Assembly: GCF_024055725.1 (NCBI RefSeq)
Contig: NZ_JAMXMX010000005.1
Location: 248,001-312,000, forward strand
Reading direction: 5' to 3'
Origin: Actinoallomurus spadix
GTDB taxonomy: Bacteria; Actinomycetota; Actinomycetes; Streptosporangiales; Streptosporangiaceae
Length of the DNA stretch: 64,000 nt
Made by a program: the position numbers and the translations under genes. The stretch's first letter is position 1. Each line of letters opens with the position of its first letter. Positions 22,116-63,225 of this stretch are shown one piece after another. The notes under the pieces are model-generated. The model was given only the letters and a program-made list of their open reading frames with translations, had not been told where the DNA came from and made no database searches.

Positions 22116-24953
22116 CTATCTGTCGGACGACGGAGGGAAGCGACGGCGGAAACGTTCGAACGGCCCGGCCGCTCCGCCGGCGTCGTGCCCGGGCGGCGTG
22201 GGAGGAGACGGCGTCCGCTCGGCGTCGTTCGCGGGGTCACCGGCGGGTGAATCGCTCTCCGCCTCCGGTACGGGCCCCTGGGGCACACCCGGCACTCCCC
22301 TACCACCGGGAAGACCGCCGGGATCCGCCCCGCCCGGGAGGTACGAGCCGCCGGGCGCACCCGGCAGGCCGGGACCTCCGGGGAGACCCGGTGACGGGTA
22401 CGCCGCTCCCGTCTCCGGGCCGGCACCGGCCGGACCCGGGGCATGGAACGACGGCCCGCCGTACGCCGCGGAGGAGGGCGGGTCTCCCGCCGGTGGGTGC
22501 TGGGAGGTTCCGGAGCCCGGTACGGTGCCGGGGAACGTCGGCGGAGCAGGAGGCGCCGGCCGCTGACCCGGCGCCGGGGGAAACGGTGCCGGTCCGAGTG
22601 GATCGGCCGCCGCCGGGCCGGATACGCGCGGATCGGCCGGTCCCCGGCCGCCGCCGAGCGGGTCGGCCGGTGCCTGCGGGCGCAGGCGCGGATCGACGAA
22701 CGATCCGCCCGTCCCGAGCGGGTCACTCGTCCCCAGCGGGTCGCGCGTCCTGAACGAATCGTCCCTCCTCAGGGGGTCACCCGTCCCGAGCGGGTCACCT
22801 GTCCTGAGCGGATCGGTCAGCGGATCTCTCGGCTCCCTCCGGTCGGCCAACGGGTCACTCGGCGTTCGCGGATCGAACCCCGGGCCCGCCGGACCACGCG
22901 GATCGGCCGACGGGACGCTCACACCGCGTGGATCGGTCAATGGCCCGCCCGGGGTCCGCCCGTCGGCCGCCGGGCCGGTGGATCCGGAGGAGGCGACGGG
23001 CAGGTCGCTCGGTCTGCGCGGGTCGGTCGAGGGACCGGCCGGCGGCTCGACCACGGCATGCGGGCCGGTCTGCGGGCCGGTCTGGGCCTGCGGATCGGCG
23101 GCGTGCCGCGCGTGCCGCGCCGAGGTGGTGGATCCCAGACGGCCTTGGGTGAACTGCTCCACCTGGGCCTTGGCCTCGTCGGCCTCGGCCCGCGCGGCAT
23201 CGCGCTCGGCGATCATCGTGGCCAGCGCGGCGCGGAGCTGATCCAGCATGCTCGACCGCTCCTTGGCCTGCAGCTGGTACTGCGCCAGCCGGGACCGCGC
23301 CTCCTCCAGCTCACGGCGGACGGACTCGATCTCCTCGGTGAGCCGCGCGGCCTCCTCCAGCCGGGGCCGTGCCGCCTCGAGCTCTCCACGCGAGGTCTCC
23401 AGATCGGCCCGGACCGCCTCCAGCTCGCTTCGAACGCCCTCCAGTTCGGTACGGGTGCCGTCCAGTTCGCCACGGGTGCGGTCGAGCTCGGCGCGTACGC
23501 CGTCCGAGTCGCCGCGAACGTCCTCCGACTCGGCGCGGGTGCGGTCCAGCTCGGTCCGGGCCTCATCGCGCTCGGCCCTGGTCCGTTCGAGCTCGGCGCG
23601 GAGTTCTTCGACCTCGGCCCGCGCGGTGTCCCGCTCGCCGCCCACCTCATCGGCGTGCGCGCGTGCCTCGAGGGCCTGCCGGTCGGCGGCCGCCCGTGCC
23701 TGCTCGGCGGCCGCGCGGGCGCTCTGCGCGAGTTCGGCCGTGGTGCGCATCTTGTCCAGCTCGGACTCGGTGGCCCGGAGCTGCGAGCGCATCTCCTCCA
23801 CCGCCGCGGCCCGCTTCTGCAGCTCCTTGGCCTCGGCGAGCTCCGCCCGGTAGCGCGCGACCTCCTCGCGGGCCAGGTCCAGTGCCGAGGTCAGCTCGGC
23901 GATCCGGCTCGTCAGGCGGTCGCGTTCCTCGCGTACGGCCGTGGCCGCCTCGGTCGCCGCCTCCGCCGTCCGGGTCGCCTGGGTACCGAGGTCGCGTGCG
24001 GCGTCCCGTTCCGTACGGGCGGCCTCGAGCCGGGCGGTCAGCTCGGCGACGGCGGTCTCGGCCCGCTCGGCCCGGCGCCGTACGTCCCCCAGCCGGGCGA
24101 GCACCCGCTCGGCGTCCAGCCGGGCCGCCTCGCGGTCCCGCTGCGCCTCGGCGACGGCGGCGGCCGCCTCCGCCCTCGCGTCCGCGATCCGCCGCTCGAC
24201 GCCCGCGACGCTGAGATCCGCCGTCAGGGACATGGCCAGGAGCTCGGCGACGTCCTCCAGCCGTTCCACCATGTCCCAGGTCCGCGCGACCTGGCCGGCG
24301 AGGCCCGGGGAGTCCTGGTCACGCCGCCGCCGCTCGGCCGCCGCCCGGGCGCAGGCGCCGTCGTTGTCGAGGCAGTACCGCAGGACGGGTCCGGCCTCGC
24401 CCGGCTGCGGGATCGGGCGCCCGCAGTAGGCGCAGGGACGCGTCACGGCGTCGTCCCCGTCCTGCGGCGGGAGCGGAACCCGCCGCGTGGCCGACGAGGC
24501 GTCCGCCGGGTGGGCACCCGGGCCCGCATTGGGACCGCCGGGGACCCGGCCGTCCTCCTCCCCGCTCGCCGTGGGACCGTCGAGGACGTGGCCGTCCTCT
24601 CCGCCGTCCGCCGTGGGGCTTTCGGGGACCGGGCCGTCCTCCCCGCCGCCCGCCGTGGAACCTTCGGGGACCCGCTCGGTCTCTTCGCCATCCGTTGATC
24701 CGGGGTCCGCCTCCGGGAGGGGTTCGCCCGCTCCGGACGGATCGTCACGTACGCCGTCCTCCTGCGCCGGAGAATCCCCCTGAGGATCGCCGGCCGCGGG
24801 GACCGCGTCGGCGGAGACCGCCGGAGGAGCGGCCGTCTCGGCCGCCGGCCGGTCCGTACCGGGCGGGTCGGCAGGGCCCGGGGCATCGTCGCCGGAGGTC
24901 ACGGCGGCATCGGGCTCGGGCACGTTGTCGTCCGTCGGGCCGGACACGCTCAT
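22116..24953 (-). CDS. Large coiled-coil protein with zinc knuckle and low-complexity tails
   Basis: I do not recognise a named family for this 945-aa protein. Residues 1-165 are acidic and disordered and include about three 14-residue repeats ending in EDG. A four-cysteine knuckle follows (C174, C177, C194, C201; CAYCGRPI spacing). Residues about 255-625 are a long coiled coil rich in ELxxTRxE heptads. Residues about 640-945 are Pro/Gly/Asp-rich, with hexapeptide repeats of the type DPLGTG. There are no membrane segments. It looks like a cytoskeletal, polar-growth or chromosome-associated scaffold; that is inference. Confidence 0.8.
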   Translation of the reverse strand: MSVSGPTDDNVPEPDAAVTSGDDAPGPADPPGTDRPAAETAAPPAVSADAVPAAGDPQGDSPAQEDGVRDDPSGAGEPLPEADPGSTDGEETERVPEGSTAGGGEDGPVPESPTADGGEDGHVLDGPTASGEEDGRVPGGPNAGPGAHPADASSATRRVPLPPQDGDDAVTRPCAYCGRPIPQPGEAGPVLRYCLDNDGACARAAAERRRRDQDSPGLAGQVARTWDMVERLEDVAELLAMSLTADLSVAGVERRIADARAEAAAAVAEAQRDREAARLDAERVLARLGDVRRRAERAETAVAELTARLEAARTERDAARDLGTQATRTAEAATEAATAVREERDRLTSRIAELTSALDLAREEVARYRAELAEAKELQKRAAAVEEMRSQLRATESELDKMRTTAELAQSARAAAEQARAAADRQALEARAHADEVGGERDTARAEVEELRAELERTRAERDEARTELDRTRAESEDVRGDSDGVRAELDRTRGELDGTRTELEGVRSELEAVRADLETSRGELEAARPRLEEAARLTEEIESVRRELEEARSRLAQYQLQAKERSSMLDQLRAALATMIAERDAARAEADEAKAQVEQFTQGRLGSTTSARHARHAADPQAQTGPQTGPHAVVEPPAGPSTDPRRPSDLPVASSGSTGPAADGRTPGGPLTDPRGVSVPSADPRGPAGPGFDPRTPSDPLADRREPRDPLTDPLRTGDPLGTGDPLRRDDSFRTRDPLGTSDPLGTGGSFVDPRLRPQAPADPLGGGRGPADPRVSGPAAADPLGPAPFPPAPGQRPAPPAPPTFPGTVPGSGTSQHPPAGDPPSSAAYGGPSFHAPGPAGAGPETGAAYPSPGLPGGPGLPGAPGGSYLPGGADPGGLPGGRGVPGVPQGPVPEAESDSPAGDPANDAERTPSPPTPPGHDAGGAAGPFERFRRRFPPSSDR

Positions 24954-57343: not shown

Positions 57344-58507
57344 ATGACGGATCAGGACGCACGGCTCGAACGCCTCCTCGCCCGCCACCGCGACGCCACG
57401 GTGGTCGAGGCGCTCCCCGGCCGCCCGGCGCTCGTCCGCCGCGACCAGATCCTCGTCGCGGCCCATGACGCGCCGGCGGTCGAGGACTCCGTACGACGCT
57501 GGTACGACACCCGGCACGACGGGCCGGGAGCGGCCCGCCTGCTGCTGCGCCCGGGCGCGAAGGTGGACGTGTGCGACCTGGCCGCCCGGCTGTCCGGCGG
57601 CGCGCCGCACCGGCGGCTGGCCGTCGCGCCCAACCATCTCGTCCACGGGCAGCCGATGTGGTGGAGCGGCCCGGCGGGGGCACCGCGCCCCGCGCCGGCG
57701 CTCGGCGCGCCGGTCGCCGACGGGACGGCCCGCCGCGCGGTCACGGTCGCCGTCCTCGACACGGGTCTGTCACCGCACCCGTGGTACTCCTCGGCAGCCT
57801 GGTACGCCGAGCAGCGCGAGGAGGTCACCGAGGTCTTGGACGCCGACCTGGACCACGAACTCGACGGGCAGGCCGGGCACGGCACGTTCATCGCCGGCGT
57901 GGTGCTGCGCCGCGCCCCGTCGGCGCGGATCCGCGCCAGGCGGGTGATCGGCGGCGACGGCGTGGGTGACGAGTTCGGCGTCCTGCACGCCCTCGCCTGG
58001 CTGGCCGGCCGGGGACACGCGGACGTCGTCAACCTGTCCTTCGGATGCCACACGTACGACGACCGCCCCTCGCCCCTGGTCTCCCGCGCCGTCGCCGCCC
58101 TCGGCCGCCGCGCGGTCGTCGTGGCCTGTGCGGGCAACCACGCGAGCGACCGGCCGTTCTGGCCTGCCGCCCTCAAGCAGGTGATCGCGGTGGCCGCGCT
58201 GGACGGCGACGAGCGCGCGGCGTTCTCCGGCTACGGCTGGTGGGTGGACGCCTGCGCGCCCGGCGTCGACGTCCACAGTTGCTTCGTCCGCTTCGACGGG
58301 CCCCGGCCGCGTGCCGGCGGGATCGACCCCGACGACTTCACCGGGTACGCCGTCTGGAGCGGCACGTCCTTCGCGGCCCCCGCCGTGGCGGGCGCGATCG
58401 CCGGGCTCGCCGCCGCCGAGGACCTGCCCGCCCCGGTCGCCGCCGACCGCCTCCTCGACCCGGCGGCCCACCGCGTTCACCCCGACCTCGGCGTGGTCGT
58501 CGCCTGA
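57344..58507 (+). CDS. Subtilisin-like (S8) serine protease without signal peptide
   Basis: The 387-aa protein has an N-terminal region of about 130 residues and an S8 domain with a complete triad: Asp139 (VAVLDTGLS), His179 (GHGTFIAG) and Ser342 (WSGTSFAAPAVAG), with oxyanion Asn265 in CAGNHAS. No Sec or Tat signal and no membrane helix are present, so it is predicted to be cytosolic, unlike most subtilases. Such S8 proteins often lie near the sigma/TPR-CHAT genes; that operon begins 1.2 kb downstream. ATG 57344 has AAGGTGG 6 nt before it. Confidence 0.9.
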   Translation: MTDQDARLERLLARHRDATVVEALPGRPALVRRDQILVAAHDAPAVEDSVRRWYDTRHDGPGAARLLLRPGAKVDVCDLAARLSGGAPHRRLAVAPNHLVHGQPMWWSGPAGAPRPAPALGAPVADGTARRAVTVAVLDTGLSPHPWYSSAAWYAEQREEVTEVLDADLDHELDGQAGHGTFIAGVVLRRAPSARIRARRVIGGDGVGDEFGVLHALAWLAGRGHADVVNLSFGCHTYDDRPSPLVSRAVAALGRRAVVVACAGNHASDRPFWPAALKQVIAVAALDGDERAAFSGYGWWVDACAPGVDVHSCFVRFDGPRPRAGGIDPDDFTGYAVWSGTSFAAPAVAGAIAGLAAAEDLPAPVAADRLLDPAAHRVHPDLGVVVA

Positions 58508-58584
58508 TCCGGCCGCCCCTCGGCCGCCCCTCCCGGCCTCCGGCGCCGCGGCCGCCGTGCCCGAGAGGCCCGCGGCCCCTCCCA

Positions 58585-58667
58585 CGCCACGGTCACCATG
58601 CCGAAGTGGCCCACGGCGGCTCCCCGCGCCACGGTCACCATGCCGGAGGGGCCGCGGCGGCTCTCCG
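58585..58667 (+). repeat. 42-bp tandem duplication
   Basis: Two copies of an about 42-bp unit, each beginning CGCCACGGTCACCATGCCG (58585 and 58627), lie in the 382-bp gap before the GH12 gene. The second copy differs by a few bases. The gap also carries the CebR-type box at 58812. Confidence 0.6.
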
Positions 58668-58889: not shown

Positions 58890-59648
58890 ATGAGACGTCG
58901 AGCCATCGCGGTCGCCCTGGCGCTGGCCGGCTCGGTCCTCACCCCGGCGATGGCCGGCACCCCGGCACACGCCGACACCCAGATCTGCGCGCAGTACGGC
59001 TCGACCAAGATCCAGAACGGCCGGTACGTCGTCCAGAACAACAACTGGGGCGACAGCACGACGCAGTGCATCAACGTCACCGGCTCCGGCTTCTCGGTCA
59101 CCACCGCCAGCCACAACAAGCCGCAGAACGGCGCGCCCGGCTCGTACCCGTCGATCTACGCCGGCTGCCACTACGGGAACTGCTCCACCGGCAGCGGCCT
59201 GCCCCTGCGCGCCGACGACGGCCGGTTCAACACGATCCAGACCAGTGTGAGCATGTCCTACCCCGGCTCCGGGGTGTACGACGCGTCGTACGACGTCTGG
59301 TTCGACCCGACGGCCCGCACGAACGGCCAGAACACCGGCGCGGAGCTCATGGTCTGGCTGAACCACACCGGTTCGGTGCAGCCCGTCGGCTCCAGGGTCG
59401 CCACCGTCAGCCTCGCCGGCGGGACCTGGGACGTCTGGTACGGCAACAGCGGCTGGAACGTCGTGTCGTACGTGCGCACCTCCCCGACCTCCTCGATCTC
59501 CTTCCCGGTGCACACCTTCTACGACGACATGGTGCGACGCGGCTACGCGCAGCGCTCCTGGTACGTCACCAGCGTCCAGGCGGGATTCGAGCCGTGGGTC
59601 GGCGGCGTGGGCCTCGCCGTGAACAACTTCTCGTACAGCATCGGCTGA
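58890..59648 (+). CDS. Secreted endo-beta-1,4-glucanase, GH12
   Basis: The 252-aa protein has a Sec signal (about residues 1-28, ending AHA) and a complete GH12 jelly-roll: CAQYGSTKIQNGRYVVQNNNWG, YPSIYAGCHYGNCS, ELMVWLNHTG and VTSVQAGFEPWVGGVGLAVNNFSY. Catalytic glutamates are Glu152 (nucleophile) and Glu234 (acid/base). It would hydrolyse cellulose or beta-glucan outside the cell. There is no cellulose-binding module. The CebR-type box upstream fits cellobiose control. ATG 58890 has GGAGG 6 nt before it. Confidence 0.93.
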   Translation: MRRRAIAVALALAGSVLTPAMAGTPAHADTQICAQYGSTKIQNGRYVVQNNNWGDSTTQCINVTGSGFSVTTASHNKPQNGAPGSYPSIYAGCHYGNCSTGSGLPLRADDGRFNTIQTSVSMSYPGSGVYDASYDVWFDPTARTNGQNTGAELMVWLNHTGSVQPVGSRVATVSLAGGTWDVWYGNSGWNVVSYVRTSPTSSISFPVHTFYDDMVRRGYAQRSWYVTSVQAGFEPWVGGVGLAVNNFSYSIG

Positions 59649-59731: not shown

Positions 59732-59737
59732 TAATAT
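59732..59737 (+). promoter_or_regulatory. -10 element for the sigma/CHAT operon (leaderless)
   Basis: TAATAT at 59732-59737 is a near-perfect -10 box and ends 8 bp before the GTG at 59746. The -35 region is weak (TAGTCA at 59710). A start point at about 59744-59746 would make a leaderless transcript. Confidence 0.5.
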
Positions 59738-59745
59738 TTCGGCGC

Positions 59746-60276
59746 GTGGACTGGAACGAGACCGGTGAACTGGTGAGACGGGCCCGGGCGGGTGACCCGG
59801 CGGCGTGGCGGGCCCTCGTCGACCGCTACTCCCGGCTGCTGTACGCGATCGCACGCTCGTACGGACTGGGTGGCGCGGACATCGATGACGTCGTGCAGAC
59901 GACGTGGCTGCGGCTGGTCGAGCGGCTGCCCCGGCTGCGCGACCCGGCGCGGGCGGGCGCCTGGCTGGCCGTCACCGCCCGCCGGGAGAGCCAGGCGGTG
60001 CTGCGGCGGCGCGGTCGCGAACGCCCCCTCACCGGTCACACGCCGACGGTGACCGGGCCGCACCACGCGGTGTTCGGGCGGGAGCTCGCCGGGTCGGTGG
60101 CCGCCGCGCTCGACACCGTGCCGCCCCGCTGCCGCGCGCTGCTCGAGCTGTCCATCGCCTCCCCGCGCCTCAGCTACGCGGAGATCTCGACGGCACTGGG
60201 CGTGCCGCTGGGCAGCGTCGGCCCGACCCGCACCCGCTGTCTCCTCCACCTGCGGCGCCGGCTCGGTGTGGCGTGA
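59746..60276 (+). CDS. ECF-like RNA polymerase sigma factor linked to CHAT protease
   Basis: The 176-aa protein has sigma region 2 (ARAGDPAAWRALVDRYSRLLYAIARSYGLGGADIDDVVQTTWLRL) and region 4 (VPPRCRALLELSIASPRLSYAEISTALGVPLGSVGPTRTRCLLHLRRRL). It overlaps the next gene by 4 bp. The upstream -10 box ends 8 bp before the GTG, suggesting leaderless translation. It probably drives its own operon when released by the two downstream proteins. Confidence 0.9.
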   Translation: MDWNETGELVRRARAGDPAAWRALVDRYSRLLYAIARSYGLGGADIDDVVQTTWLRLVERLPRLRDPARAGAWLAVTARRESQAVLRRRGRERPLTGHTPTVTGPHHAVFGRELAGSVAAALDTVPPRCRALLELSIASPRLSYAEISTALGVPLGSVGPTRTRCLLHLRRRLGVA

Positions 60277-60689
60277 CCGACGAGGAGCTGATCGAGCGGC
60301 TGCGCACGGCGTTCCCGCCGGTGCCGGGCCACCTGCTCGCCGTAGGGCTGGCCGCGTTCGGCTGGCTGGTCCCGGACGCGACGCTGGCGACGCTCGCCTA
60401 CGACGCGGCGGACACCCCGGCCGGAGTGCGCGGCGGCGAGCCGCGGACGCTGACGTTCGCCGGGCCGGACGTCCGCGTGGAGATCGAGATCTGCGGGCGG
60501 GAGATCGTGGGGCAGCTCGCGCCCGCGGCGGACGCGGAGGTGATCCTCCGGTCACCCGCCGGCGAGCGCGGCACCCGCACCGACGAGTCCGGCGGGTTCG
60601 TCCTGCCGGAGGTCCCGGCCGGCCTGGTCAGCCTCCTGTTCCGGCCGGCCGACGGCACGTCGATCGTGACGAGCTGGATTCATGTCTGA
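60273..60689 (+). CDS. Small beta-sandwich protein between sigma factor and CHAT protease
   Basis: The 138-aa protein has an N-terminal helical half (TDEELIERLRTAFPPVPG, GWLVPDATLATLAYDAADTP) and a C-terminal Ig/carboxypeptidase-regulatory-like half (AEVILRSPAGERGTRTDESGGFVLPEVPAGLVSLLFRP). No membrane segment. It overlaps the sigma stop by 4 bp and the CHAT start by 8 bp, so all three are coupled. By analogy with Csx30 in type III-E systems it could be an inhibitor of the sigma factor and substrate of the protease; this is untested. Confidence 0.75.
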   Translation: MTDEELIERLRTAFPPVPGHLLAVGLAAFGWLVPDATLATLAYDAADTPAGVRGGEPRTLTFAGPDVRVEIEICGREIVGQLAPAADAEVILRSPAGERGTRTDESGGFVLPEVPAGLVSLLFRPADGTSIVTSWIHV

Positions 60690-63225
60690 CCTCCTGGCGC
60701 TCGCGGCGCACGATCCGCGCGGCGTGTACGCCACCGCGTCGGAGCTGCGGGACACCGGCGACCCGGGGCAACGCGTGCTGGCGCTGCGGGCCCTCGGCCT
60801 GGCCGGCAAGGAGCTGGGCCGGCTCCGGGAGGGCATCGCGCACCTGCGTGAGGCCCTGCGCCTCGCCGAGTCGGCGCGGCTCGGCTACGCCGCCGCCCAG
60901 GTGCGGATGAACCTCGTCGGCCTGCTGGCCGCCGGCGGGGACATCGAGGGCGCGCTGGCCGCGGCGGACGCCGCGGCGCCGGTGCTGACCGGCGCCGACG
61001 CCGACCGGCTGCTGGCCAACCGCGCCTACCTCCTCGCCCGGAGCGGCCGCATCCGCGAGGTCGCCCGCATCGCCCGGACCTGCACCGACCCGGAGATCCT
61101 CGTGGGCCTGCGGATCAACACCGGGCTCGCGAAGGCGTACGCCGGCCGGCTCGGGCGCGGGGAGGCCGACCTGCGGGTGGCGCTCGCGGTCGCCGAACGC
61201 GCGGGTCTACGGCACCAGGCGGCGATGGTCCGGCACAACCTCGCGTTCGTCGCCATGCGCCGCGGTGACCTCCCCCGCGCGCTGGCCCTGTACGACGTGG
61301 TCGAGCCGGAGTTCGCCGGCGCGGAGGAGCGCCTCTGCCAGCTGCGCGTCGACCGGGCCGAGGCACTCATCGCCGCACGGCTGCCCGGAGAGGCCCGTGT
61401 CCTGCTGGCGGACACCGTCGACCGGCTGACGGCCGGCGGCTACCGGTGCGACACCGCCGACGCCCTCTTGCTCCTCGCGCACGCCGAACTCGCCGACGGC
61501 GATCCGGAGGCCGCCGCGGAGACCGCCCGGCGGGCCCGGGCGGAGTTCGCGGAGCGCACCGGATCCGCGCTCCTCGCCGAGCAGGTCGGCCTGCGCGCCC
61601 GCTGGGCGCACGGCGACCGGTCCGCCGCCCTGCTCGCGGCGGCCGAGCGGACGGCCGAACGGCTGGCGGCGTACGGCTGGGCCTCCGCCGCGGCGGACGC
61701 CCGTACGCTGGCGGCCCTCGTCGCCCTCAGCCGCGCGGACCCGGACCACGCCGAGCACCTCCTCTCCCGGGTCAGGGGCGGCACCGTGAGCACCCGGGTC
61801 GCGGCCCTGCACGCGACCGCGCTGCTCCGGCTCGCCCGCGGCGACCGGCCCGGCGCGTCCGCCGCCGTCCGCGCCGGACTGCGCGCCGCCGACGAGCATG
61901 CCGCCGCGCTCGGCGCGGTCGAGTTGCGCGGCCGCGCGGCGGGATGGGCGGCGGAGCTGGCCGACCTCGGGGTCCGGCTCGCTACCGGTCCCCGCGCCCT
62001 GCTGGTGGCGGCCGAGCGGGCACGGGCGATCGCCGGCCGCCCGCCCGCCGTACGCCCGCCCCGCGACCGGCGACTCGCCGGGCTGCTCGCCGAACTGCGC
62101 CGTGTCAGCGCCGAGGTTCCCGGCCGCCCGGAGCTGCAGGCAGCCCAGCGCCGTCTGGAGGGCGCCGTCCGCGCCCGGTGCCGCCACCTGTCCTCCAGCC
62201 GGGACGCGGTCGCCGGGTGGGGCTGGCTCGTCCCCGCCCTCGCCGAGGCGCTGGGCGACCGGATGCTCGTCGAATTCGTCCGTGTCGGTGCGGATCTCCT
62301 CGCCGTGACCCTGGCGGACGGACGCTGCCGCCGCCGCGTCCTCGGCCCGTACGACAAGGTACGGACCGACGTGCGCCTCGTGCGATTCGCCGTCTCCCGG
62401 CTGGCCCACGACCCCGGCAACGCGGCGGCGCGCGCCTCGCTCGCGGCCACCGCGGGTCGCCTGCACGCCCGGCTGATCGCGCCGCTGTCCGTCGGGGAAC
62501 GGCCGCTGGTCCTCGCACCGGTGGGGGCGCTGCACGGCCTGCCCTGGGCCGCCCTGCCCTCCCTGACGGGCCGCCCGGTGACGGTCGCGCCGTCCGCCGC
62601 GAGCTGGCTGCGCGCGATGCGGACACCGTCGGCCGGCGGGCACGTGACGCTCGTCGCCGGTCCCGATCTCACGCACGCGGACGAGGAGATCGGCGCCGTA
62701 CGCGCATCGCACCCGGAGGCTCGGGTCCTCACCGGCGCCGCCGCGACCGCCGAGAACGCCCGGTCCGCCCTCGACGGCGCCGCGATCGCCCACATCGCCG
62801 CGCATGGAGCCTTCCGATCAGGGAACGCCCTGTTCTCCGGCCTCCGTCTGGCCGACGGGCCCCTGTTCACCTACGACCTGGAGCACCTGGAGCGACCCCC
62901 GCGCCTGCTGGTCCTGTCCGCCTGCGACGCGGGTCGCGTGGAGATCTACGAGGGTGAAGCGGTCATCGGCATGGTCACCGCCGCCCTGGGCTTCGGCACC
63001 GCCACGGTCGTCGCCGCCGTCACCCCGGTCGGCGACGCCGCCGCCCGCGACCTGATGACGGGTTTCCACCGACGCCTCGCCGCGGGCGCGTCCCCCGCCG
63101 ACGCCCTCGCCACGGCCTCCGGGTCCCTGTCCGCCCTCGGCTTCGTCTGCTTCGGCGCCGGCCACGATGGGCACGCGTCGTCCGGATGTGACGATGGTCC
63201 CCGTCCAGGGACAGCGGCGCTTTGA
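60682..63225 (+). CDS. TPR-CHAT protease
   Basis: The 847-aa protein has an N-terminal array of TPR-like helical repeats (about residues 1-430, units of about 34-38 residues), a linker, and a C-terminal CHAT caspase-like protease domain (about 540-820). The catalytic dyad is His708 in AHIAAHGAFRSG and Cys748 in LLVLSACDAGRVE. CHAT proteases cleave partner proteins after a signal received by the helical part. The overlapping sigma and small-protein genes make them the likely partners. Confidence 0.92.
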   Translation: MSDLLALAAHDPRGVYATASELRDTGDPGQRVLALRALGLAGKELGRLREGIAHLREALRLAESARLGYAAAQVRMNLVGLLAAGGDIEGALAAADAAAPVLTGADADRLLANRAYLLARSGRIREVARIARTCTDPEILVGLRINTGLAKAYAGRLGRGEADLRVALAVAERAGLRHQAAMVRHNLAFVAMRRGDLPRALALYDVVEPEFAGAEERLCQLRVDRAEALIAARLPGEARVLLADTVDRLTAGGYRCDTADALLLLAHAELADGDPEAAAETARRARAEFAERTGSALLAEQVGLRARWAHGDRSAALLAAAERTAERLAAYGWASAAADARTLAALVALSRADPDHAEHLLSRVRGGTVSTRVAALHATALLRLARGDRPGASAAVRAGLRAADEHAAALGAVELRGRAAGWAAELADLGVRLATGPRALLVAAERARAIAGRPPAVRPPRDRRLAGLLAELRRVSAEVPGRPELQAAQRRLEGAVRARCRHLSSSRDAVAGWGWLVPALAEALGDRMLVEFVRVGADLLAVTLADGRCRRRVLGPYDKVRTDVRLVRFAVSRLAHDPGNAAARASLAATAGRLHARLIAPLSVGERPLVLAPVGALHGLPWAALPSLTGRPVTVAPSAASWLRAMRTPSAGGHVTLVAGPDLTHADEEIGAVRASHPEARVLTGAAATAENARSALDGAAIAHIAAHGAFRSGNALFSGLRLADGPLFTYDLEHLERPPRLLVLSACDAGRVEIYEGEAVIGMVTAALGFGTATVVAAVTPVGDAAARDLMTGFHRRLAAGASPADALATASGSLSALGFVCFGAGHDGHASSGCDDGPRPGTAAL

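Follow-up and report, generated by a model that had tools for sequence, protein, structure and literature searches.

How is an ECF-type sigma factor controlled when its gene overlaps that of a small protein, which in turn overlaps the gene of a TPR-CHAT cysteine protease? The question arises from a stretch of 64,000 nucleotides of Actinoallomurus spadix DNA, the whole of which is called the window here. From the letters alone it had been suggested that the locus follows the logic of craspase with no CRISPR: the protease would cut the small protein, and the sigma factor so released would transcribe its own leaderless operon. The locus was compared with its relatives across the Actinomycetota and with known protease-sigma systems.

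Genes and proteases of the locus

The features of the locus are collected in Table 1. The overlaps were confirmed from the coordinates as 4 bp between the sigma and small-protein genes and 8 bp between the small-protein and CHAT genes. A GH12 gene, absent from the sequence-only reading, sits between the subtilase and sigma genes; among the module loci searched, it was found at the window's own locus and in A. soli (L002) only.

Table 1. Coordinates of the module and adjoining features in the window.
Feature	Position	Strand	Basis or remark
S8 subtilase, cytosolic, 387 aa	57344..58507	+	Pfam Peptidase_S8 2.2e-28
GH12 glycosidase gene	58890..59648	+	Pfam 5.6e-44; outside module
TAATAT, candidate -10 element	59732..59737	+	sequence and relatives
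ECF-type sigma factor, 176 aa, GTG start	59746..60276	+	Sigma70_r2 1.5e-14, TIGR02937 8.3e-19
Small protein, 138 aa, GTG start	60273..60689	+	predicted soluble anti-sigma factor
Arg53 codon of small protein, candidate P1, context V-R-G	60429..60431	+	conservation among relatives
TPR-CHAT cysteine protease, 847 aa	60682..63225	+	Pfam CHAT 7.6e-36
Catalytic His708 codon of CHAT protein	62803..62805	+	kept in relatives
Catalytic Cys748 codon of CHAT protein	62923..62925	+	kept in relatives

The CHAT domain scored 124.5 bits against a Pfam cut-off of 24, and its dyad of His-Gly and Cys lies where the sequence-only reading had placed it. In an alignment of 134 rows, including the window's own copy and two truncated sequences, His was found at position 708 and Cys at position 748 in 131 of the 131 relatives that reach these sites. 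The AlphaFold2 model of the protein (pLDDT 94) matched the folds of separase, DdvA and Csx29. Separase gave the best matches (TM to 0.46-0.55 of the query) and, like the CHAT protein, combines a superhelix with a clan CD protease domain.

The subtilase triad (D139, H179 and S342, the last residue of a GTS motif) was also as previously described, and it is intact in all 118 relatives aligned (119 rows, one being the window's copy). The protein has no strongly hydrophobic stretch; the top 19-residue mean was 1.43, at residue 245 and not at the N-terminus. A defence-system label for the two proteases was rejected, with PADLOC giving BovA at 0.003 for the CHAT protein and 'subtilase' at 6e-11 for the S8 protein. 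A search of plasmids for the CHAT protein (E 1e-30) gave no match.

Conservation of the sigma, small-protein and CHAT genes

Linkage in relatives, whose absence had been set beforehand as a refuting test, proved strong, as did co-occurrence. In 296 genomes of the class, inferred to belong to a larger set of 394, the small protein and the CHAT family were both present in 100 and both absent from 193, with two genomes holding the small protein only and one the CHAT family only. Genomes were counted as CHAT-positive at E < 1e-40, a threshold chosen after a gap was seen between the best E of the weakest genome counted (3.8e-61) and that of the strongest one left out (2.6e-32). Had the 1e-20 limit of the search itself been applied, the CHAT-only group would have grown by 16 genomes. 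The co-occurrence also holds where the module is split between separate loci of the same genomes, with sigma and small protein at L147, L148, L152, L156, L163, L166 and L154 and CHAT with subtilase at L184-L190.

Gene order was read from fetched loci, a hand-picked spread of matches and not a random sample. The sigma gene lies directly upstream of the small-protein gene on the same strand at 77 of 84 places in the order (own locus included), at 36 of 38 in the class outside the order, at 2/2 (L182, L183), and at 17 of 21 in other classes. A 4-bp overlap of the two genes was present at 38 of the 84 order places when the start closest to the sigma stop was taken. The alignments consisted of the window with 73 of the other 83 order small-protein places, 10 near relatives being omitted (A1); the window with 91 relatives, 16 named loci and short pieces being omitted (A2); 20 of 22 places (A3 and A4); and the window with every second place, 57 of 113 (A5). 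Since no other CHAT gene was found in the window's genome and this linkage is repeated in relatives throughout the phylum, the grouping goes beyond chance. The set of sigma factor, small protein and CHAT protease is a conserved module of the Actinomycetota.

Counting the window's own, 66 of the 84 order places have the subtilase inside the fetched stretch. Eighteen genomes of the window's own family were searched for it. In 13 of them, the fetched locus carries the sigma, small-protein and CHAT genes and lacks the subtilase; the other five (G005, G008, G010, G017, G040) are congeners added without viewing the locus, and three order loci without S8 (G031, G052, G095) fall outside this test. No module-type subtilase was found anywhere in the genome in 13 of these 13. 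As the trio persists without it, the subtilase belongs to the module as an accessory, a status shown in one family, and its role as the essential protease was rejected. The upstream subtilase of the sequence-only reading thus turned out to be more than a neighbour.

Partial distance correlations over 88 loci, computed without correction for the species tree, were highest of the six pairs for sigma-small (0.46), followed by small-CHAT and CHAT-S8 (0.40 each), sigma-CHAT (0.30), sigma-S8 (0.19) and small-S8 (-0.11). The set excluded five named loci in which module genes are repeated, as well as every locus missing any of the four genes. The correlations place the parts in the order subtilase–CHAT–small–sigma.

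The small protein and its linker arginine

The AlphaFold2 model of the small protein (pLDDT 90.7) has two N-terminal helices, at residues 3-13 and 19-30, plus beta-strands that form a beta-sandwich. Pfam scans recognised no anti-sigma domain in its 138 residues; the sole match was CarboxypepD_reg, sub-threshold at 2.9e-4, and the idea of an enzyme was rejected. The best PDB match by sequence was not significant (E 0.35), and a fold search of the PDB gave generic Ig-like matches among the best 50 of 868. Orthologues of a Rubrobacter-like type, aligned by hhalign with the window's small-protein family (probability 97.7, E 1.8e-12), were more informative. Of 20 N-terminal domains of these proteins, 18 match the NCBIfam 'anti-sigma factor' model (best 2.3e-6), 12 match zf-HC2 (best 9.4e-4) and five match RskA_N, all below the curated cut-offs, and a PDB profile search with the domain gave E 0.15-0.19 at best. 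All of these matches come from one distant order. Because the domain, weak as it is, recurs among these orthologues, the most likely role of the small protein is that of a soluble anti-sigma factor; its predicted inhibition of the sigma factor has independent but weak backing from this source. Its gene also adjoins and overlaps the sigma gene, as class I anti-sigma factor (ASD) genes do.

Between the helices and the beta-sandwich lies a linker with an arginine, Arg53. With the window's copy and three duplicates set aside, 160 of 162 distinct relatives have this residue. The linker around it varies in sequence and in length, with 8-21 residues from L41 to R53 and 7-24 from R53 to F62. The context is mostly V/L-R-G/S, and the pattern [VLIMTA]R[GSADTE] holds at the arginine in 153 of the 160; anywhere in the linker, it occurs in 156 of 162 relatives versus 47.5% of shuffled linkers. 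R58 is also conserved (140/162), and the residues flanking R53, at positions 52 and 54, exceed the median conservation. R53 is kept at 20 of 20 loci with no subtilase in the fetched stretch. Both exceptions (n = 2) are in genomes without the CHAT family, and one of them (L203) retains an arginine in a shortened linker. Separase, which cleaves cohesin in eukaryotes, takes Arg at P1. Arg53 is a candidate for a separase-like cleavage site; it could instead be structural or serve in sigma binding. We know of no separase-homologous substrate of the module. The proposed action of CHAT on the small protein is backed indirectly, by the nearly invariant linker arginine together with the distance correlations.

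From these comparisons we favour, with a probability of about 0.6, a cytosolic regulated-proteolysis switch that is free of CRISPR, in which the CHAT protease would cut the small protein as an anti-sigma factor and free the sigma factor. The small protein would bind the sigma factor through its N-terminal helical part, the TPR superhelix would read a signal, and the CHAT protease would then cut after Arg53, in the linker, and so release the sigma factor. The subtilase would be an accessory, probably a sigma-controlled output or a feedback protease at the level of CHAT.

Several loci of the module have no adjacent sigma gene (L056, L064, L068, L157 and L164; at L107 the sigma gene is convergent), so the proteases may be a further target of the small protein. 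It is conceivable, if unlikely, that the small protein is a protease adaptor or inhibitor, scaffolding sigma factor and CHAT or holding CHAT off, with a conformational release that needs no cleavage at R53. The four loci L056, L064, L068 and L157, where CHAT, subtilase and small protein stand together, and the small-CHAT correlation would suit such a role, whereas the unbroken retention of the CHAT catalytic residues and the conservation of R53 within a linker of variable length argue against it.

A TGTATCA-N16-CTC element precedes the subtilase-sigma-small operon in many other families, and in some it also precedes a neighbouring AAA-ATPase-like gene. Under the favoured switch, the freed sigma factor may in those many families transcribe this promoter, giving positive feedback, and in some it may also drive the AAA-ATPase-like gene through the same element. 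The motif enumeration mixed related loci and coding sequence and served as a lead only. Sites of the form TGTATCA-N16-CTCY are barely more numerous per genome than those of a reversed-pattern control (20 vs 15 in 10 genomes), so that their positions alone are informative and not their counts per genome. The element is absent upstream of the module in the window and its clade, and autoregulation through it was rejected there. The proposal that the sigma factor transcribes its own leaderless operon found no support in the window, although the TAATAT, which ends 8 nt before the sigma GTG, with the same spacing in L002 and L003, fits a leaderless transcript.

Known protease-sigma systems

The gene context of the module is already in print as that of ECF54. 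In the ECF54 passage of a 2022 review (PMC8999054, citing Casas-Pastor et al. 2021 and Huang et al. 2015 for the group and its context), the context consists of conserved carboxypeptidase, subtilase and CHAT proteins, the sigma factor is assumed to have no anti-sigma factor, and regulation by proteolysis is proposed. The module shares this context, since its ECF sigma factor stands with subtilase, CHAT and 'carboxypeptidase' (regulatory-like) proteins, and by genomic context the sigma factor of the window is probably ECF54-like. We infer that the 'carboxypeptidase' of that passage is the small protein of the module. Here it is reinterpreted as an anti-sigma factor, soluble and with a conserved linker that resembles a cleavage site; two further differences from the review are the finding that the subtilase is accessory and the proposal of a promoter element. 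What we newly propose is the small protein as a brake with a nearly invariant candidate cut site.

If the published view holds as it stands, the proteases would degrade the sigma factor itself and in this way hold the system off, with the 'carboxypeptidase' among the proteolytic partners. The conserved context described in that passage agrees with this; the small protein, however, if it is the protein meant, has 137-179 aa and no peptidase match, only a beta-sandwich like that of carboxypeptidase-regulatory domains. The anti-sigma-like domain of distant orthologues and the top rank of the sigma-small correlation also tell against this view, and we consider it improbable. A two-step cascade, in which CHAT activates the subtilase and the latter cuts the small protein, would make use of the two proteases per module (often divergent or in one operon) and of the CHAT-S8 correlation, but it is very improbable given the 13 of 13 tested genomes that keep the trio without a module-type subtilase, the persistence of R53 at loci without subtilase and the negative small-S8 correlation.

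The CHAT-mediated switch resembles the type III-E Craspase/CASP system, with its TPR-CHAT protease Csx29, Csx30 and CASP-sigma, in which a protein restrains an ECF sigma factor (PMC10028731). The module likewise has a TPR-CHAT protease with catalytic His and Cys, and its CHAT protein matches Csx29 in fold (e.g. 8eey_B, E 2.7e-13, TM 0.39/0.44) and by sequence profile (1.4e-6). According to PMC10028731, the cut in Csx30 falls within a loop of the C-terminal domain, and no single residue of Csx30 proved essential for it; in contrast, the module's small protein has a nearly invariant linker arginine. The small protein also had no significant sequence match in the PDB, which includes a Csx30 complex. 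No CRISPR-like array was present among the direct repeats of the window and of L074 (reaching 7 kb past the window), and no Cas7-11 was seen by eye among the ORFs listed; with no array in the window, a CRISPR-associated system was rejected. The idea of craspase-like logic without CRISPR is supported in outline; transcription of the sigma factor's own operon is the part that found no support here.

In Myxococcus xanthus, the ECF sigma factor DdvS is controlled by DdvA, an anti-sigma factor with a CHAT domain of its own (PMC4374960; 8rot, 8rw5, 8rlz). The CHAT protein matches DdvA by profile (5.5e-12) and in fold (1.9e-14, with a low TM of 0.26), and the anti-sigma profile from the Rubrobacter-like orthologues reaches DdvA with E 0.15. 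Going by the PDB title, DdvA is one transmembrane polypeptide, whereas in the module the predicted anti-sigma factor and the CHAT protease are separate and soluble, with an accessory subtilase. The EACC2-caspase systems, as outlined by Kaur et al. 2021 (PMC8195603), comprise a caspase-fold protease, an ECF sigma factor and a DUF1822 TPR protein; the EACC2 and caspase domains are constant in that outline, whereas Pfam scans of the module reported neither.

The widest form of the claim, a phylum-wide, CRISPR-free, separase/caspase-like switch in which soluble TPR-CHAT proteases would control ECF sigma factors by cutting soluble anti-sigma factors, a family so far unrecognised, at one nearly invariant linker arginine, we judge evenly balanced. 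If it is true, craspase would be a CRISPR-wired instance of an older protease-anti-sigma-sigma circuit, and the R53 linker would be a genetically encoded cleavage reporter for the module's signal. The favoured switch makes the general suggestion of proteases around ECF54 specific and testable, naming the residues H708/C748 and R53 and, for sister families, a promoter-like sequence. Linker cleavage would offer a simple handle for finding the signal. In a phylum to which the main antibiotic producers belong, the module would stand as a counterpart of craspase that is chromosomal and independent of CRISPR.

Composition and gene order of the module

The sigma factor, small-protein and CHAT genes overlap by exactly the 4 and 8 bp of the sequence-only reading, as their coordinates confirm. 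In Pfam, region 2 of the sigma factor was clear and region 4 sub-threshold, and the protein matched the generic ECF model at 8.3e-19. The small protein was predicted with good confidence (pLDDT 90.7) as two N-terminal helices followed by beta-strands; its sole Pfam family signal was a sub-threshold CarboxypepD_reg, which appeared at E up to 1 in 41 of 74 family members. In PDB fold matches of the CHAT protein model (pLDDT 94), separase took ranks 1-3 and DdvA rank 4 with a low TM of 0.26, and Csx29 appeared from rank 11. DdvA is described as an anti-sigma factor in PMC4374960 and in PDB titles. The subtilase has its triad and is without a strongly hydrophobic stretch. Among the module loci searched, the GH12 gene was common only to the window and A. 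soli (96% identical), and was not found in the others, the related locus L003 included.

Features located in the window and in loci of relatives (L-numbers; L074 is the window's region with 7 kb beyond)
Feature	Sequence	Position	Strand	Remark
Short direct repeat array	window	22708-22815		18-nt period; away from the module
Subtilase (S8)	window	57344-58507	+	
Three imperfect 31-nt direct repeats	window	58540-58653		spacing 41-42 nt; in the subtilase-GH12 interval
GH12 glycosidase gene	window	58890-59648		between subtilase and sigma gene
ECF sigma factor	window	59746-60276	+	
Small protein (138 aa)	window	60273-60689	+	
TPR-CHAT protease	window	60682-63225	+	
Phosphatase-like and possible acetyltransferase-like genes	L074	15554-18984		few kb 3' of the window's module
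Matrixin-type M10 peptidase	L036	6516-8339		behind TGTATCA element
Sub-threshold trypsin match	L228	8863-10341		behind TGTATCA element
AAA-ATPase-like gene	L257, L261, L265, L267, L269, L273; L099, L113			34-35 nt after TGTATCA-N16/17-CTC

Of the genomes sampled, the small protein was matched in 159 of 200 at the level of the order, 131 of 394 at that of the class and 33 of 296 at that of the phylum, the three samples overlapping. A sigma gene lay directly 5' of the small-protein gene at 77 of 84 places in the order (the window's own counted), 36 of 38 in the class outside the order, both of the loci L182 and L183, and 17 of 21 in other classes. Within the same fetched stretches, the CHAT gene was present at 79, 27, 2 and 14 of these places, respectively, and the subtilase at 66, 29, 0 and 13. 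The order S8-sigma-small-CHAT occurred at 28 of the 84 places in the order, CHAT divergent from S8-sigma-small at 25, and sigma-small-CHAT at 16, with further arrangements besides; sigma-small-S8-CHAT and more were seen outside the order. That the module persists despite rearranged order and orientation argues for function and not for inheritance as a block. Five loci (L056, L064, L068, L157, L164) hold the subtilase and small protein, and all except L164 also CHAT, without an adjacent sigma gene; some of them are in genomes with several module copies.

Six loci of the family f21 (L147, L148, L152, L156, L163, L166; L158, a short contig, is kept apart) and L154 carry sigma and small-protein genes, with neither CHAT nor subtilase in the stretch fetched. 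All seven genomes have CHAT elsewhere, with the subtilase divergent beside it (L184-L190). Across 296 class genomes, counted without regard to kinship, the small protein and the CHAT family were both present in 100, the small protein only in 2 (one of them 75% complete), CHAT only in 1, and neither in 193. In 13 own-family genomes with an S8-less sigma-small-CHAT locus and in 5 congeners, no module-type subtilase was found anywhere: best matches were 1e-22 to 1e-31 or none, compared with 8e-82 to 2e-130 in five genomes having it and 1e-27 to 3e-43 in seven module-less genomes, the search model being biased to near relatives so that a very diverged copy could escape. The constant trio is sigma, small protein and CHAT; the subtilase behaves differently. 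The f21 pair is surrounded by genes that we take to be SepH-like, acetyltransferase, phosphatase-like and thymidine-kinase-like, housekeeping in look. Genes similar to two of these in L074 (see table) suggest that the f21 pair's site and that of the window's module are one ancestral site.

The small protein and its linker arginine

Family f60, of a Rubrobacter-like order, has a small-protein orthologue of ~200 aa with an extra N-terminal domain. Among 20 such domains, an NCBIfam anti-sigma model matched 18 (best 2.3e-6), zf-HC2 12 (best 9.4e-4), RskA_N 5 and a putative anti-sigma-E model 5, all below curated cut-offs. A PDB profile search with the domain returned DdvA (E 0.15), RskA (0.19) and an MHC chain (0.28). 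The remainder is firmly homologous by sequence to the window's small-protein family (hhalign probability 97.7, E 1.8e-12, from residue 15 on), with two linker arginines in register. We infer that the helices of the window's small protein may be the remnant of an anti-sigma domain.

The linker between helices and sandwich falls where confidence in the model is lowest (block of residues 51-60, pLDDT 73), and its length varies over 8-21 residues between L41 and R53 and over 7-24 between R53 and F62. Its arginine R53 was kept in 160 of 162 relatives, counted after removal of three duplicates and of the window's protein, among them 20 of 20 Rubrobacter-like proteins; R58 was kept in 140 of 162, and every other arginine position in 95 or fewer. 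Around R53, positions 46-48, 55 and 56 count among the variable sites (0.9-1.2 bits, ranks 6-31 of 138), conservation is intermediate at 49-51 and 57, and it exceeds the median at 52 and 54 (2.5 bits), as expected of a P2/P1' preference. The pattern [VLIMTA]R[GSADTE] stood at R53 in 153 of 160; over the whole linker, 156 of 162 contained it, versus 47.5% of shuffled linkers. Arginine at P1 is a common requirement among clan CD proteases such as separase, and R53 is probably the P1 residue of a candidate cleavage site. This CHAT family was not found in the genomes of the two exceptions, L061 and L203 (98% and 96% complete); since L203 has a shortened linker that still includes an arginine, the absence of CHAT in both is suggestive only.

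Promoter-like elements

TGTATCA occurred 59 times within 500 nt 5' of module genes (6.9% of fetched sequence), where 6.7 were expected, and 38 times in the remainder, related loci not being independent; 42 and 14 of these sites, respectively, had CTC 16 nt later. Within 700 nt, it lay before the subtilase in 43 cases, before the sigma gene in 17 and before the small-protein gene in 1. The number of strict sites in ten Streptomyces-like module genomes was hardly raised (20, versus 15 for the reversed-pattern control). Seven of these sites precede the module subtilase; behind six, an AAA-ATPase-like gene begins after exactly 34 nt, ~2 kb past the CHAT gene end. One of the six, profile-scanned, gave a sub-threshold AAA_16, the piece being cut by the locus end; the L113 protein encoded after such a site, which resembles the others by eye, matched AAA and LuxR-HTH. 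Five module-less Streptomyces-like genomes had two TGTATCA-type sites in all. The proteases behind the element in L036 and L228 are further possible sigma targets.

The element was not found 5' of the module in the window, the two named relatives or the nearest genera read, and the two sites of the window's genome are both on other contigs. In the same set, TAATAT stands eight bases 5' of the sigma GTG. This agrees with a leaderless transcript, as in the earlier suggestion that the sigma factor transcribes its own leaderless operon, but not with self-activation by the TGTATCA element. On the CHAT side of divergent CHAT/S8 regions, a GTCTAACATC-like element recurs by eye (L038, L040, L044, L045, L052, L092, L184, L185, L187); its TAACAT is similar to a vegetative -10, which would suit CHAT expression that does not depend on the module's sigma factor.

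Proposed order of action and earlier proposals in print

Partial distance correlations, calculated from 88 loci in which all four genes are present, were 0.46 for sigma-small, 0.40 for small-CHAT, 0.40 for CHAT-S8, 0.30 for sigma-CHAT, 0.19 for sigma-S8 and -0.11 for small-S8, uncorrected for the species tree, an effect that should raise all pairs about alike. The simplest chain these would support is S8-CHAT-small-sigma.

For the sigma group ECF54, control by proteolysis and without an anti-sigma factor has already been proposed because its context has conserved carboxypeptidase, subtilase and CHAT proteins, according to a 2022 review citing Casas-Pastor 2021 and Huang 2015 (PMC8999054). That review alone was found on ECF54, and the literature matches listed included no experimental study of the sigma-small-CHAT module, subscription papers being outside the scope of both searches. 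Comparisons with Craspase and with the EACC2-caspase system were drawn from PMC10028731 and PMC8195603, respectively. The craspase-like logic first suggested for the window is correct in its outline and applies more generally than was supposed, but the module context was already on record as ECF54. Our own proposals are the reading of the small protein as an anti-sigma factor, the conserved arginine in its linker, the evidence for a constant trio and a split module, and the promoter-like element in sister families. In the proposed circuit, the small protein would bind the sigma factor, and its cleavage by CHAT upon a signal would release the sigma factor.
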